In this document: piece after piece, positions 4,853-60,865 of the stretch | Layout of the letters: every line of letters begins with the position of its first letter | Position numbering within the stretch: position 1 is the stretch's first letter | DNA from: Brevinematales bacterium | Lineage (GTDB): Bacteria; Spirochaetota; Brevinematia; Brevinematales; GWF1-51-8 | Length of the DNA stretch: 64,000 nucleotides | Direction: 5' to 3' | Assembly (NCBI GenBank): GCA_020059465.1 | Contig: JAGVBZ010000008.1 | Coordinates: 62,001 to 126,000, forward strand | Translations under genes and position numbers: made by a program | The notes under the pieces: model-generated | Told to the model about the DNA's origin: nothing | Databases searched by the model: none | The model's input: only the letters and a program-made list of their open reading frames with translations

Positions 4853-5938
4853 ATGAAAAAAGCGTTGATTGTTGCCCTACTTCTGTCCGCGTTCATCCTA
4901 AGCTATTCCGCCGACGGAGTTCCGGTAAACTGGGTAATCCTGACTATCGGGAATAATTCGCTGACACTGAACGATTTAGAGCGTTTCTACGAATTCGAGA
5001 AAACCAGCGGAGACCCGAAAGCGACCATGGAATCGGCATTCGACGAGCTTCTTTTCCTCTACGGCCTTAAGGGTATCGCCGAAAAAAATCCCAATATCAA
5101 ACTGCAGTCCGACCCCCAGCTTGTTCTGGGTGCGATCACCAATCTTACGAACACCGAAGCCCAGCAGATCCGCCTGAAACTCTATAACGAATTTCCCGAT
5201 CAGTTCATTCTATTGATGGAAAAGGAGCAGATTATCGATAATCTCTTTTTCTATGAGGAGAACCTGAAAACCAATATGAATATCGAAATCTCGGAAGAAC
5301 AGAGAAAGCAGTATTTCGATAAGAATAAGGACAAATTTATCGCTCCCGCTAAGCTGGACTTTATCGTGTTCGCGGCGCATCCGGTCGACGATACCCTCGC
5401 GCAGTTATCAATGTTTGAGAATAATATGAAGGCAATTGCCGCATATCTGAGTAAAAGCGATAAAGCCGATTATATATTCAATAAGTACAAGTCGATGAAT
5501 TTCACCCCATACTCCGGACATAGCGGTCTGAAATATGCCTACGAGCTTGTGAAAGACGGCAAGTATCCCATGGAGATACTCGGCGTGGCATTCGAGGAAA
5601 AAATACAGATCACCGCCACCGAGACGATCAAGATTAAAGAGGGAAAAGCCTTCTATATCCCCCAGCCTATCAAGCTGAAAAACACAAAGAATCCGGTATA
5701 TATCGTCATGAAGATCATCAAACGTGAAAAAGACAAACCGATGACGTACGACGAGGTCAAGGCTATGAAGGATCCCAACGGGCAATCTCAGATCGACCTG
5801 ATACTCAAATCGGAGTACCGGATGAAGATGCTGCGGAACTATGTAATAAAAAAGATAAAAACCGGTCAAATCCTCGTCACACTTTTTGACCAAAATTATC
5901 TTAAGCAGTATAATACTTTTATCAATTCGGATAAATAG
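4853..5938 (+). CDS. SurA-like secreted chaperone
   Basis: The 361-residue product has a signal peptide (MKKALIVALLLSAFILSYSA) followed by a SurA/PrsA-like N-terminal region (VNWVILTIGNNSLTLNDLERF) and a segment resembling the linker to parvulin domains (ISEEQRKQYFDKNKDKF). The usual parvulin signature is not obvious, so it may be a chaperone without isomerase activity. A periplasmic role in outer-membrane protein folding is inferred from these family features. A GAGGAG ribosome-binding site precedes the ATG. It lies 15 bases before ribH and may be co-transcribed with it. Confidence 0.6.
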   Translation: MKKALIVALLLSAFILSYSADGVPVNWVILTIGNNSLTLNDLERFYEFEKTSGDPKATMESAFDELLFLYGLKGIAEKNPNIKLQSDPQLVLGAITNLTNTEAQQIRLKLYNEFPDQFILLMEKEQIIDNLFFYEENLKTNMNIEISEEQRKQYFDKNKDKFIAPAKLDFIVFAAHPVDDTLAQLSMFENNMKAIAAYLSKSDKADYIFNKYKSMNFTPYSGHSGLKYAYELVKDGKYPMEILGVAFEEKIQITATETIKIKEGKAFYIPQPIKLKNTKNPVYIVMKIIKREKDKPMTYDEVKAMKDPNGQSQIDLILKSEYRMKMLRNYVIKKIKTGQILVTLFDQNYLKQYNTFINSDK

Positions 5939-55675: not shown

Positions 55676-56035
55676 ATGGAAAAAATGGATGATTTAGAGA
55701 TCTTTCAGGAAAAAAAGGGAAATATATCTATTCTTCGTCTGAAAGGGATAATGGATAGCTCGACCTGTATGCAATTCGGTATCCAGTTCAAAGAAATCGC
55801 CGAACGGCCGGGACTACTGCTTATACTGGATCTGAAGGAGCTTTCCTATATCAACAGTATCGGTATCGGGACAATGGTCAGTAATATTCGAAAAATTCAG
55901 AGTTCCGAAGGCAGGGTCTGCTTCTTTCAGGTATCGGAGGAAGTGAAGCATGTTTTCGATCTAACCGGTCTCTCCAATATCTTCTTCTTTTTTGACGATG
56001 AGGATTCGGCATTAAAATTTCTGACCGGGAATTGA
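55676..56035 (+). CDS. STAS-domain antagonist, RsbV-like
   Basis: The 119-residue protein has the STAS phosphorylation region LDLKELSYINSIGIGTMVSN; the serine is kept although the usual preceding Asp is Asn. It should be substrate and antagonist of the RsbW-like kinase encoded upstream. No terminator directly follows; the next strong stem-loop is the trp leader terminator at 56.2 kb. Confidence 0.85.
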   Translation: MEKMDDLEIFQEKKGNISILRLKGIMDSSTCMQFGIQFKEIAERPGLLLILDLKELSYINSIGIGTMVSNIRKIQSSEGRVCFFQVSEEVKHVFDLTGLSNIFFFFDDEDSALKFLTGN

Positions 56036-56085
56036 CATATTTTAGGAATGCTTTTAACATAATTCATCAATATGAGGAATACATT

Positions 56086-56148
56086 ATGATTATTCTGACA
56101 GTCTCTTCGAACTCTAACTGGTGGCGCAATATACTCTGTCGAGTTTAG
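56086..56148 (+). CDS. trpL: trp operon leader peptide
   Basis: A 20-codon frame with AGGA 7 bases before the ATG (56086). It contains tandem tryptophan codons (TGG TGG at 56119-56124) in NSNWWRN and stops at 56148. It sits 35 bases before a Rho-independent terminator and 81 bases before the first gene of a trp operon. Tandem Trp in a short leader before a terminator is the classic design of ribosome-mediated trp attenuation. The peptide itself is not expected to have a function. Confidence 0.78.
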   Translation: MIILTVSSNSNWWRNILCRV

Positions 56149-56183
56149 GATGACCTTGGGGCTAATTGTAATATATTTATATT

Positions 56184-56219
56184 CCCGCGGGTTCATGCCT
56201 GCGGGTTTTTTCTTTTTTT
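56184..56219 (+). terminator. trp attenuator (terminator in leader)
   Basis: CCCGCGGG (56184-56191) pairs with CCTGCGGG (56198-56205; one G-U pair) around a 6-base loop, followed by TTTTTTCTTTTTTT. The T-run ends just before the AGGAGG of the phosphoesterase gene. A competing antiterminator may use ATGACC (56150-56155) against GGGTTCAT in the terminator's 5' side, but I could not fix this by eye. Confidence 0.78.
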
Positions 56220-56229
56220 AGGAGGCACC

Positions 56230-57039
56230 ATGAAAAAACTACTGGCACTTTTCCTGTTCATCACCGTCGCATTTTATACCGCCGCCGCAGCGAAAAAGCC
56301 GGCCGCTAATGAAACATTCTACTTCGTTCAGGTCACCGACACCCATTGGGGCAACGATCTGCATACGGCGCGATTGAAGAAGATTGTCGACGCGATCAAC
56401 GCGCTCCCCATGAAGATCGAGTTCGTCGCACATACAGGCGATATCGCGAGCGACGACATGGACAATATGGCGAATCTGTCCAACGCGCTGAAAATATATT
56501 CGCAGTTAAAAGCGCCTCTTTATTTTGTCCCCGGCAACCACGACATCGTAAAATATAAGTTCAACAAGTGCATCGGTATCTATACGAATTATTTCTCGCC
56601 CCTGAATTACACGGTCGAGGTCAAGGGCGTTGTCCTATTATTCACATTCCTCGAACCCCTGCGCGAGAATTACACAATTCCGGGATACGATCCGTACAAA
56701 TGGGTCGAGAGTACGCTGAAGGCGAACCAGAAAAAGCCCGTGCTGATTTTCCATCACTCGCCGGTTATCCCCGACTTTTACAATAACGAGATGCATTATC
56801 CGTACGACCCGAAGGAGACCTCCGACTGGAACGCAATAGTCAACAAATACAAAAATGTAAAAGGAATCCTCTGCGGGCATTTCCACCGGGGCGAAATGCG
56901 CTGGATCGGCGATGTCCCTTGCTATGTCTCGCCGTCGGTCGCCGCGTACTGGGAACGGCAGGCAACGTTCAGGGTGTATGAGTACGACAACGGCAAACTG
57001 AATTATTTCACGGTATATATAGAAGATAAAGAAAAATAA
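56230..57039 (+). CDS. Secreted calcineurin-like metallophosphoesterase
   Basis: The 269-residue product has a signal peptide (MKKLLALFLFITVAFYTAAAA) and the complete metallophosphoesterase motif series: DTHWG (D-x-H), GDIASDD (GD), GNHD (GNHE/D), HHSP and GHFHRG (GHxH). It should be a periplasmic or exported phosphodiesterase/phosphatase; the substrate is unknown. It lies between the trp attenuator and trpE, 9 bases before trpE, so it belongs to the trp transcription unit, which is unusual. AGGAGG gives the start. Confidence 0.88.
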   Translation: MKKLLALFLFITVAFYTAAAAKKPAANETFYFVQVTDTHWGNDLHTARLKKIVDAINALPMKIEFVAHTGDIASDDMDNMANLSNALKIYSQLKAPLYFVPGNHDIVKYKFNKCIGIYTNYFSPLNYTVEVKGVVLLFTFLEPLRENYTIPGYDPYKWVESTLKANQKKPVLIFHHSPVIPDFYNNEMHYPYDPKETSDWNAIVNKYKNVKGILCGHFHRGEMRWIGDVPCYVSPSVAAYWERQATFRVYEYDNGKLNYFTVYIEDKEK

Positions 57040-57048
57040 GAGGCCGAT

Positions 57049-58470
57049 ATGGATGCGAATAATGTTCTTTACCCCGTACACCGTGAGATCGCGGCGGACA
57101 TAGAAACTCCCGTTTCCGCGTTCCTCGCGCTGAAGGAGGAAGGCAGAATGGGGTTCCTGCTGGAGAGTGTCGAGATGGGCGAAAAACTCGGACGATACTC
57201 GTTCCTCGGATTCGACCCGGAGTTGATCTTCACAGCGAAACGCAATAAAGTACGGGTGACGTTCAACGGCGGGACAGAGGAGATTGACGCCGACGATCCG
57301 ATCGCCGAGATCAAGCGTATCGTGTCTTCGTTCCGTGAGGAGCCTGTCGAGGGCCTGCCGCCGTTTACCGCAGGGCTGATCGGGTACTTTTCCTACGACT
57401 CCGTCCGTTACTTCGAGAAGCTCCCCGATATTAAGCCGGACAGACTCGGCCTTCCCGATATATTCCTCGTCCTGCCGAAGGTGCTGATCGCGTTCGACCA
57501 TATCCGGCAGAAACTCATCCTGATCGGGCACGCCTACTCGCCGGATAAAAAGGACGAGGTGATGCAGACGCTTCTGGAATACGAGGCGCGCCTCTTCTCC
57601 GCGAAGCCCCCCGCCCGGATTAAAGAATCGTCCCGGAATAAGATCGACCTGATCTCCAATTTCCGCAAGGCGGATTTCATCGCGGCGGTGGAAAAAGCGA
57701 AACAGCATATTGTCGCGGGAGATATCTTCCAGGTGGTCATCTCGCAGCGCCTGCGCACGGAGATCGACATAGGCCCGTTCGATATCTACCGAAAACTCCG
57801 CATGATCAATCCGTCCCCCTACATGTTCTATATCGACCTCGAGGATTTTCAACTCATAGGATCGTCGCCCGAGGTCATGGTGCGCCGGACAAAGTCCGGG
57901 GATAAGGACGAACTGATCGTCCGCCCTATCGCCGGGACACGCCCGCGCGGGAAGAATAAAAAAGAGGACGAAGCTGTCGAGCGGGAACTCCTGAACGATG
58001 TGAAGGAACTCGCCGAGCATACGATGCTCCTCGACCTCGCGCGAAACGATGTCGGCCGCATATCGGAATTCAATTCCGTCCGCGTCGAGGCTCCGTACCA
58101 TATCGAACGTTACTCGCATGTAATGCACATCGTTTCCGACGTCTTCGGGAAACCGAACCCGCAATATGACGCGGTGGATATCATCGGTGCGACATTCCCC
58201 GCCGGTACGGTGAGCGGTTCGCCGAAGGTGCGTGCGATGGAAATTATCGAGGACCTCGAACCTGAGAAACGCGGGGTATACGCCGGTGCTATCGGATACA
58301 TCGATTTCTCCGGCAACACCGACACCTGTATCGCGATCCGCACCATCATTCACAAGGATAAAACCGCCTACCTTCAGGCGGGCGCGGGTATTGTGTACGA
58401 TTCCGTCCCGGAGCGGGAATACGAGGAGACTATCAACAAGGCTAAAGCCCTGATGAAGGCGATTATTTAG
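57049..58470 (+). CDS. trpE: Anthranilate synthase component I
   Basis: Converts chorismate to anthranilate with ammonia from TrpG. The 473-residue protein shows the N-terminal LLES tryptophan-binding motif (feedback inhibition), FQVVISQRL, the IAGTRPRGK and ELAEHTMLLDLARNDVGR motifs, and YSHVMHIVSDVFG. It is 9 bases after the phosphoesterase gene. Full length. Related para-aminobenzoate synthases lack this context. Confidence 0.95.
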   Translation: MDANNVLYPVHREIAADIETPVSAFLALKEEGRMGFLLESVEMGEKLGRYSFLGFDPELIFTAKRNKVRVTFNGGTEEIDADDPIAEIKRIVSSFREEPVEGLPPFTAGLIGYFSYDSVRYFEKLPDIKPDRLGLPDIFLVLPKVLIAFDHIRQKLILIGHAYSPDKKDEVMQTLLEYEARLFSAKPPARIKESSRNKIDLISNFRKADFIAAVEKAKQHIVAGDIFQVVISQRLRTEIDIGPFDIYRKLRMINPSPYMFYIDLEDFQLIGSSPEVMVRRTKSGDKDELIVRPIAGTRPRGKNKKEDEAVERELLNDVKELAEHTMLLDLARNDVGRISEFNSVRVEAPYHIERYSHVMHIVSDVFGKPNPQYDAVDIIGATFPAGTVSGSPKVRAMEIIEDLEPEKRGVYAGAIGYIDFSGNTDTCIAIRTIIHKDKTAYLQAGAGIVYDSVPEREYEETINKAKALMKAII

Positions 58471-58479
58471 GAGGCGCGT

Positions 58480-60084
58480 ATGATATTGGTTATCGATAAT
58501 TACGATTCGTTCATATATAACATCGTACAGTATATCGGGGAGTTTTACCCCGACGTGAAGGTATTCCGGAACGACAAGCTGACCGTAGACGAGGCGCTCG
58601 CGATGGAGCCCGACGGGATAGTGATTTCGCCCGGCCCGGGCCGTCCGTCCGACGCGGGCATCTCCGAGGAACTCATCCGCCGTTCGGGGGATATCCCCGT
58701 ATTCGGGGTCTGCCTCGGACATCAGGGCATCACCGAGGTATTCGGAGGCGAGGTCATTTCCGCGTCCCGCATCATCCACGGGAAAAGCTCGAATATGACG
58801 CATACCGGAACCGGGATATTTGCCGGACTGCCGTCGCCCCTCAAGGGCATCCGTTACCACTCCCTCGCGGCGAACCGCGCGAATTTTCCCGATACCCTCG
58901 AGATCACATGCGAAAGCGACGACGGCGAAATTATGGGTGTCAAGGCGAAGGGGCGGAATATCCACGGCATCCAGTTTCATCCCGAATCGTTCCTTACCCA
59001 GTACGGCAAGCAGATCGTCAAGAACTTCGTCGATATGGTTGTCGAACGGCAGAAAGCGAAAATATCCGACCGGGTAAAGTCGATTGTCCTGCGGATATGT
59101 AATAAAGAAGACCTGACGCAGGACGAGGCAGCCGAAATGATGGATACCATCATGAACGGGGAAGCCACACCCGCGCAGATCGCGGCCTACCTGACATCGA
59201 TGCACCTTAAGGGCGAATCCGCCGCCGAGATCACCGGGAGCGCGCAGTCGATGTTCCGCGCGGCGCTGAAAGTCAGTACCGGCGCACAGCCGCTCATCGA
59301 CACCTGCGGGACAGGCGGCGACCATTCCGGCACGTTCAATCTATCGACCGCGTCGGCGTTTGTCGCGGCGGGCGCTGGGATTCATATAGCGAAGCACGGC
59401 AACCGTTCCATCACCAGCAAAAGCGGTTCCGCCGACGTGCTCCAGTCGCTCGGAGTAAGGATCGACCTTTCTCCCGAACAGGCCGCACGGTCTATCGAGG
59501 CCGCGGGGTTCGCGTTCCTGTTCGCGCCCGCGTACCATCCCGCGATGAAGCATGTGATGCCCGTCCGCCGCGAGATCGGTATCCGTACGATATTTAATAT
59601 CCTCGGCCCGATCGTGAATCCCGCCGGGGTAAAACGTCATATCATGGGGGTCGCGTCCCCCGCCCTGCTCGAAATGATCCCCGATGTATTCGCGCGGCTG
59701 GGGCATATCCATTCGGCGGTCGTACACGGCGAGATCGGTATCGACGAGGCGTCGGTCGAGGGACTGACGCAGGTACGGGAAATCCGTGCCGGCGAGGTCA
59801 AATCGTGGACGCTCGACCCGTCGGAATACGGCCTCGACGGCCTGATAGAAAATCTCCGCGTATCCGGCGCGGAAGAAAGCGCCCAGATGATCCTCGATAT
59901 ATTCGAGGGTTCCGAGAAGGGCGATCCTTATAAGGCGGTCGTGCTGAACGCCGCCCTCGCTGTGATGGTCGCATCGGATATCCCGATCCACGAAGCGGTC
60001 GGCGTCGCGAGGGAATCAGTCGACTCTGGGAAGGCTATGCGCGCGCTCGAGGCCGCCCGGAACTTCTCACCCGGGACGGAGTAA
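58480..60084 (+). CDS. trpGD: Fused TrpG glutaminase - TrpD phosphoribosyltransferase
   Basis: One 534-residue chain. Residues 1 to about 190 are the TrpG glutaminase (VIDNYDSFIYNI, FGVCLGHQGI with the nucleophile Cys, GIQFHPES). Residues about 200-534 are TrpD (CGTGGDHSGTFNLST, KHGNRSITSKSGSADVLQSLG, PVRREIGIRTIFNILGPIVNPAG). It supplies ammonia to TrpE and transfers phosphoribose to anthranilate. Such fusions occur in enterobacteria and scattered other phyla. Starts 9 bases after trpE. Confidence 0.95.
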   Translation: MILVIDNYDSFIYNIVQYIGEFYPDVKVFRNDKLTVDEALAMEPDGIVISPGPGRPSDAGISEELIRRSGDIPVFGVCLGHQGITEVFGGEVISASRIIHGKSSNMTHTGTGIFAGLPSPLKGIRYHSLAANRANFPDTLEITCESDDGEIMGVKAKGRNIHGIQFHPESFLTQYGKQIVKNFVDMVVERQKAKISDRVKSIVLRICNKEDLTQDEAAEMMDTIMNGEATPAQIAAYLTSMHLKGESAAEITGSAQSMFRAALKVSTGAQPLIDTCGTGGDHSGTFNLSTASAFVAAGAGIHIAKHGNRSITSKSGSADVLQSLGVRIDLSPEQAARSIEAAGFAFLFAPAYHPAMKHVMPVRREIGIRTIFNILGPIVNPAGVKRHIMGVASPALLEMIPDVFARLGHIHSAVVHGEIGIDEASVEGLTQVREIRAGEVKSWTLDPSEYGLDGLIENLRVSGAEESAQMILDIFEGSEKGDPYKAVVLNAALAVMVASDIPIHEAVGVARESVDSGKAMRALEAARNFSPGTE

Positions 60085-60085
60085 A

Positions 60086-60865
60086 ATGAATAAATTACAG
60101 GAAATCATCGACGCGAAAAAATCCGAGGTCGAAGAACTTCACCGCTCCTACGATAAAGGTATCCGTGCCGAAAGCACGCCCCTGCGCCCGTCGTTCCGCG
60201 ACGCGCTCACCGGCGGCGGCTTCCTCAAACTGATCGCCGAGGTCAAACGAAGCTCGCCGTCCATGGGAAATATCAACCCCGCCGCCGACCCTGTCGAGAC
60301 CGCAAGGGTCTACTCGGAGAACGGTGCGTCAGCCGTATCGGTGCTGACCGACCGGAAATACTTCGGCGGAAGCTGGGAATTCCTGCGGAATATCGCCGCC
60401 GTATCCGGACTGCCCCTCCTGTGCAAAGATTTTATCATCGACCCCATACAGATCGACCTTGCCCGCGCCTACGGCGCGTCGGCCGTACTCCTGATCACCG
60501 AGGCCCTCCCCGGCAGCGAACTCGCCCGCCTGTACCGTCATACCGAAGAATGCGGGCTGGACGCGCTCGTGGAAGCGCATCTGCCGGAGAATATCGAACG
60601 CGCGGCCGCGCTCGGCGCGCCGGTAATCGGGATCAATAACCGCGACCTCACGACATTCGAACTCGATACGGAATACGCGCTGAAATACGCGGGGATGATT
60701 CCCGCCGATAGGATACGTCTCGCGCTGTCGGGAGTGGAGACCGCTGATGACGCGCGGAAATTCGCACGCGCGGGATTCGACGGTATCCTCGTCGGAACGT
60801 CGCTCATGCGCGCGAAAAACCCAGCATCGGCGGTACGCGAGCTCTCCGGAATCGGAAGGGTGTAA
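60086..60865 (+). CDS. trpC: Indole-3-glycerol phosphate synthase
   Basis: The 259-residue TIM-barrel enzyme has LIAEVKRSSPSMGNI with the catalytic Lys, LTDRKYFGGS, LCKDFIIDPIQI, EAHLPENIERA, IGINNRDLTTFELD and ALSGVETADD. It begins one base after the trpGD stop. trpF, trpB and trpA are not found downstream, so the pathway is completed elsewhere. Confidence 0.96.
   Translation: MNKLQEIIDAKKSEVEELHRSYDKGIRAESTPLRPSFRDALTGGGFLKLIAEVKRSSPSMGNINPAADPVETARVYSENGASAVSVLTDRKYFGGSWEFLRNIAAVSGLPLLCKDFIIDPIQIDLARAYGASAVLLITEALPGSELARLYRHTEECGLDALVEAHLPENIERAAALGAPVIGINNRDLTTFELDTEYALKYAGMIPADRIRLALSGVETADDARKFARAGFDGILVGTSLMRAKNPASAVRELSGIGRV

Follow-up and report, generated by a model that had tools for sequence, protein, structure and literature searches.

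A predicted tryptophan-codon attenuator ahead of a metallophosphoesterase-trpE-trpGD-trpC unit in Brevinematales, and similar leaders across Spirochaetota

Organization of the trp leader locus

The window analysed here, a stretch of 64,000 nucleotides from a Brevinematales bacterium, contains a short leader open reading frame, an intrinsic terminator and four closely packed genes on the forward strand (Table 1). Upstream lies a gene for a STAS-domain protein, which ends at position 56035 and is itself preceded by a gene for a HATPase_c_2 protein; the -35 box of the leader promoter overlaps the 3' end of the STAS gene. The leader begins with ATG at 56086 and terminates with TAG at 56146-56148, and the spacing of leader, promoter, stop and terminator is right for an attenuator. 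The first gene behind the terminator encodes a calcineurin-like metallophosphoesterase with a signal-peptide-like N terminus, which among curated proteins comes nearest to cyclic-nucleotide phosphodiesterases, at scores far below the cut-off. From this gene to trpC the spacers measure 1-9 bases, so a single transcript is likely.

An earlier note on this DNA had pointed to an AGGA site, a frame with TGG TGG, a stop at 56148 and a stem with a T-run, and all of these are present in the sequence. Its placing of a trp unit after the attenuator holds for trpE, trpGD and trpC, but it is the metallophosphoesterase gene, not trpE, that comes first. The genome had seemed spirochaete-like, in agreement with the best named relatives of TrpE: the Spirochaetes bacteria GWF1_49_6 (95%) and GWF1_51_8 (84%), and the Brevinematales DeMMO3_10 (71%) and Ch60 (60%).

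Table 1 Features of the leader region and the genes behind it (positions in the window)
Feature	Position	Strand	Evidence
Sigma-70-type promoter, TTGACA-17-TAACAT	56032..56060	+	promoter scan, 10/12 matches
Ribosome-binding site of the leader, GAGGA	56074..56078	+	sequence; AGGA conserved in congeners
Leader peptide ORF, MIILTVSSNSNWWRNILCRV followed by stop	56086..56148	+	sequence; homologous leaders in L033, L005, L034, L035
Region 1, predicted to pair with 56141-56154 absent a ribosome, masking part of region 2	56101..56114	+	predicted fold only
Tandem Trp codons TGG TGG (codons 12-13), proposed sensor	56119..56124	+	AACTGGTGGCGC invariant in four genomes
Region 2, antiterminator 5' strand, beginning two bases past the leader stop	56150..56161	+	10 pairs with 56184-56196
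Region 3, antiterminator 3' strand and terminator 5' arm	56184..56196	+	folding, pairing tests
Intrinsic terminator, stem 56184-56205 (9 pairs, -17.7 kcal/mol) and T-run to about 56219	56184..56219	+	terminator scan, folding
Secreted calcineurin-like metallophosphoesterase, 269 codons, first gene behind the attenuator	56230..57039	+	Pfam Metallophos PF00149, 9e-17
trpE, anthranilate synthase component I	57049..58470	+	TIGR00564 over cut-off
trpGD fusion	58480..60084	+	GATase and Glycos_transf_3; TIGR01245 and TIGR00566 over cut-off
trpC, indole-3-glycerol phosphate synthase	60086..60865	+	PF00218, 2.7e-74

On the forward strand of the window, this is the only locus where a short ORF with TGG TGG is followed by a terminator at or below -9 kcal/mol; the reverse strand holds one weak and unrelated ORF-terminator case (-9.3). 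Tryptophan makes up 0.48% of the residues in five neighbouring proteins, from which the chance of a tandem pair within 20 codons is about 4e-4. The leader peptides are not recognized by Pfam or NCBIfam.

The trpB gene, a divergent trpB-like gene and trpF are located elsewhere in the genome, and the loci scanned for trpB and the trpB-like gene show no second Trp leader. Directly 5' of the divergent trpB-like gene is a TrpR family gene (L195; contig C25, 168022-168258), with a hairpin and T-run upstream of it; this locus lies at a great distance from the trp operon.

Alternative RNA structures of the leader

Two mutually exclusive folds can be drawn for the RNA between the leader stop and the first gene. 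In one, regions 2 and 3 pair to form the antiterminator; in the other, region 3 serves as the 5' arm of the terminator. The earlier note had proposed looking for such a pair of folds, and the antiterminator found here (Table 1) supplies the partner that its attenuator reading called for. The stop and region 2 are so close, with region 2 starting two bases on, that a ribosome halted at the stop would cover region 2, whereas one on the Trp codons would leave it free. This is the layout known from the paradigm, the E. coli trp leader.

Within the window, the antiterminator alone is modestly better than shuffles (p 0.13). The whole fold of 56086-56230 has an energy of -37.9 kcal/mol and a z of -1.4 against shuffles, which is unremarkable by itself; the evidence is comparative. 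Across the four genomes of the genus, 95% of the cells in the antiterminator alignment are paired, versus at most 52.5% when the strands are slid by one to three columns. With a ribosome on the second Trp codon and the right arm of the terminator still unmade, the antiterminator is the minimum-energy structure of the free RNA in three of the four congeners, the exception being L034. No compensatory double changes occur among the four, whose sequences are too close for such changes to be visible; the pairing is conserved, not covarying. The pairing of region 1 with region 2 is not reproduced consistently in the predicted folds of the relatives. As far as sequence and folding predict, the elements and the two alternative pairings of an attenuator are present, and antiterminator and terminator would contend for region 3.

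Conservation in congeners and other Brevinematales

The leader, the position of its stop, the antiterminator and the terminator all recur in three congeners, with the leaders MIILTVSSNLNWWRNISLSS (L005), MIILTVSSNINWWRSITLSSIG (L033) and MNRSYSLSKLNWWRGILIYTLG (L034). In each of them the leader is followed by a like terminator and then by the phosphoesterase, and upstream of it TTGACA and an A/T-rich -10 box are conserved. The four genomes of the genus agree in the segment AACTGGTGGCGC and differ in the leader codons surrounding it. Small indels that shift the frame lie downstream of the Trp codons and ahead of the stop, and still every stop is placed at the edge of the GGATRACC motif.

A second Brevinematales family shows a simpler arrangement. 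In DeMMO3_10 (L035), the leader MSFFTVNFFFWWREYLSIKGLNLNKG, with Trp-Trp-Arg, and a terminator are situated directly 5' of trpE. Each of the four genomes of the genus has the phosphoesterase gene separating the attenuator from trpE, and L035 lacks it at this position, so the gene looks like a genus-level insertion.

A related Brevinematales family has no Trp leader. Before trpE it carries a promoter and, adjacent to the promoter, a conserved perfect palindrome, GTTTCTATAYATAGAAAC, situated just upstream of trpE in L036 (about 4945-4965) and on the reverse strand upstream of trpE in L008. The palindrome looks like a repressor operator, and one sensing system may have replaced another within the order.

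Leaders upstream of trpE across Spirochaetota

The survey covers regions upstream of trpE-like genes in Spirochaetota genomes. A region was counted when it held an ORF of 8-45 codons that begins with ATG and contains a pair of neighbouring Trp codons, with a terminator at or below -9 kcal/mol no more than about 130 bases downstream. Such leaders are found in 31 of 107 regions, distributed over 16 families (32 of 108 with a duplicate, since L016 and L090 share an identical leader, apparently come from one genome and are counted once). The genes surveyed may include paralogous chorismate-binding enzymes, which makes 31/107 a lower bound and not a frequency among true trpE operons. The antisense strand, used as a control, yields none in 108 regions, and the best other tandem codon reaches 7 regions.

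The surveyed leaders, for example MKITLLTFAINNSWWWWTNMMST, MNFMISLNNYWWWFRD and MKPMVTAHVQWWWNRGTSR, contain runs of two to four Trp codons, and their stem sequences are unrelated. In 15 of 31 leaders tested, a set that does not include L026 and L027, the stretch following the Trp codons pairs better with the terminator's 5' arm than shuffled sequences do (p<0.05). Taking the worst value per family, the combined Fisher p for this antiterminator pairing over the 16 families is 5e-8. Two leaders, L029 and L142, have near-textbook antiterminators of at least 10 nearly consecutive pairs.

A comparison of leaders in relatives had been suggested in the earlier note, and the Trp codons are conserved in frame in the congeners, in L035 and in the surveyed regions. 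Judged by these predicted leaders, the spread of the attenuator is wider than that note had guessed, reaching 16 families of the phylum.

Proposed mechanism and alternative explanations

We consider the region 56086-56219 to be a ribosome-mediated transcription attenuator of the trp operon, with a probability of roughly nine in ten. The proposed ribosome stalling, read-through and tryptophan response follow the E. coli trp paradigm. Transcription would start near 56067, and the leader would be translated while the RNA is being made. When charged tRNA-Trp is ample, the ribosome would pass codons 12-13 and reach the stop at 56146, with its footprint over region 2. Region 3 would then pair with region 4, forming the terminator, and RNA polymerase would stop in the T-run near 56219. 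A shortage of charged tRNA-Trp would make the ribosome stall at the tandem Trp codons and leave region 2 open. Region 2 would pair with region 3, no terminator would form, and the metallophosphoesterase-trpE-trpGD-trpC unit would be transcribed.

The same terminator could instead belong to the upstream STAS gene unit, with the short ORF arising by chance and the trpE promoter lying elsewhere. The end of the STAS gene puts the terminator in a fitting place, but a TTGACA promoter is already present there, ahead of the leader, and the Trp codons are invariant. A like arrangement moreover precedes trpE in families that have no STAS neighbour, namely in L035 and in the survey, and this explanation is very unlikely. 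T-box, riboswitch or TRAP-type systems control trp genes in Bacillota. A T-box or riboswitch sensing tryptophan or tRNA-Trp, or a TRAP-type protein, might likewise use the terminator, the presence of which is common ground. However, no Rfam family, T-box included, reaches its cut-off in the window; the genome, about 97% complete, contains no TRAP gene (PF02081; B. subtilis control positive); and the invariant in-frame Trp codons would be left unexplained. Control of this kind is hardly credible here. Permissive Rfam scans of the window return SAM-III, the trpB motif and the L10 leader as weak chance matches, far below cut-off.

A repressor of the TrpR type could also be the main control of the unit, leaving a minor role to the leader. 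The genome does encode a Trp_repressor homologue over the cut-off, yet its gene lies on another contig, where it adjoins the second trpB-like gene, the divergent one, and the segment 56001-56090 contains neither a perfect palindrome with arms of at least 6 bases nor CTAG. The repressor as main control is thus improbable; dual control by repressor and attenuator, as in E. coli, is possible alongside the attenuator reading.

Comparison with known attenuators

The enterobacterial trpL attenuator (RF00513) shares with this locus a short leader, tandem Trp codons followed by Arg, a stop at the edge of region 2, an antiterminator that overlaps the 5' arm of an intrinsic terminator, and a trpE operon downstream. 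In contrast to trpL, the peptide and stem sequences are different here and a metallophosphoesterase gene stands ahead of trpE. The Rfam model RF00513 (Trp_leader) has no match in the genome at its gathering cut-off of 41 bits (E. coli control positive), and none over the cut-off in 149 Spirochaetota genomes; scans of the window, the permissive ones included, do not return it either. Sub-threshold matches occur in eight genomes of the phylum; in the four checked (G047, G060, G098 and G136) they lie on contigs other than that of trpE, and are therefore taken as chance.

In Sinorhizobium meliloti, rnTrpL/peTrpL (PMC7298713) likewise has a uORF in which Trp codons follow one another, together with structures that exclude each other, and controls only one among several trp transcription units. 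Its leader RNA and peptide also have trans-acting roles. The trp leaders of the actinobacteria Corynebacterium and Streptomyces, cited in PMC4833913, have in common that attenuation ahead of trpE or of the trp cluster depends on Trp, in another phylum. According to a paper of 2010, Proteobacteria and Actinobacteria were the only groups in which leader-peptide attenuation had been demonstrated until that paper's own histidine case in Firmicutes (PMC2965389). The earlier note had thought the system perhaps undescribed in spirochaetes, and the literature searched, in which most subscription papers are not represented, gives no account of trp attenuation there.

The mechanism is very probably the classical one known from E. 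coli; its description in Spirochaetota is apparently new, and the main interest is the new, wide taxonomic range. Attenuation of trp genes is probably widespread in the phylum (at least 16 families) and was probably overlooked because no covariance model recognizes these attenuators; this genus has probably also placed a secreted metallophosphoesterase under tryptophan control. Such a spread would imply either a much older origin or repeated invention, a question that the leader set makes testable. The trp genes of Spirochaetota gain a regulatory annotation, and the linkage to the phosphoesterase offers a first hint on when the secreted enzyme is made.

Trp-rich short ORFs upstream of trpE are also seen outside the phylum, in Desulfobulbus elongatus and a Desulfobacterales genome (L087 and L095; CWWRSE and NWCWWWSSGG).
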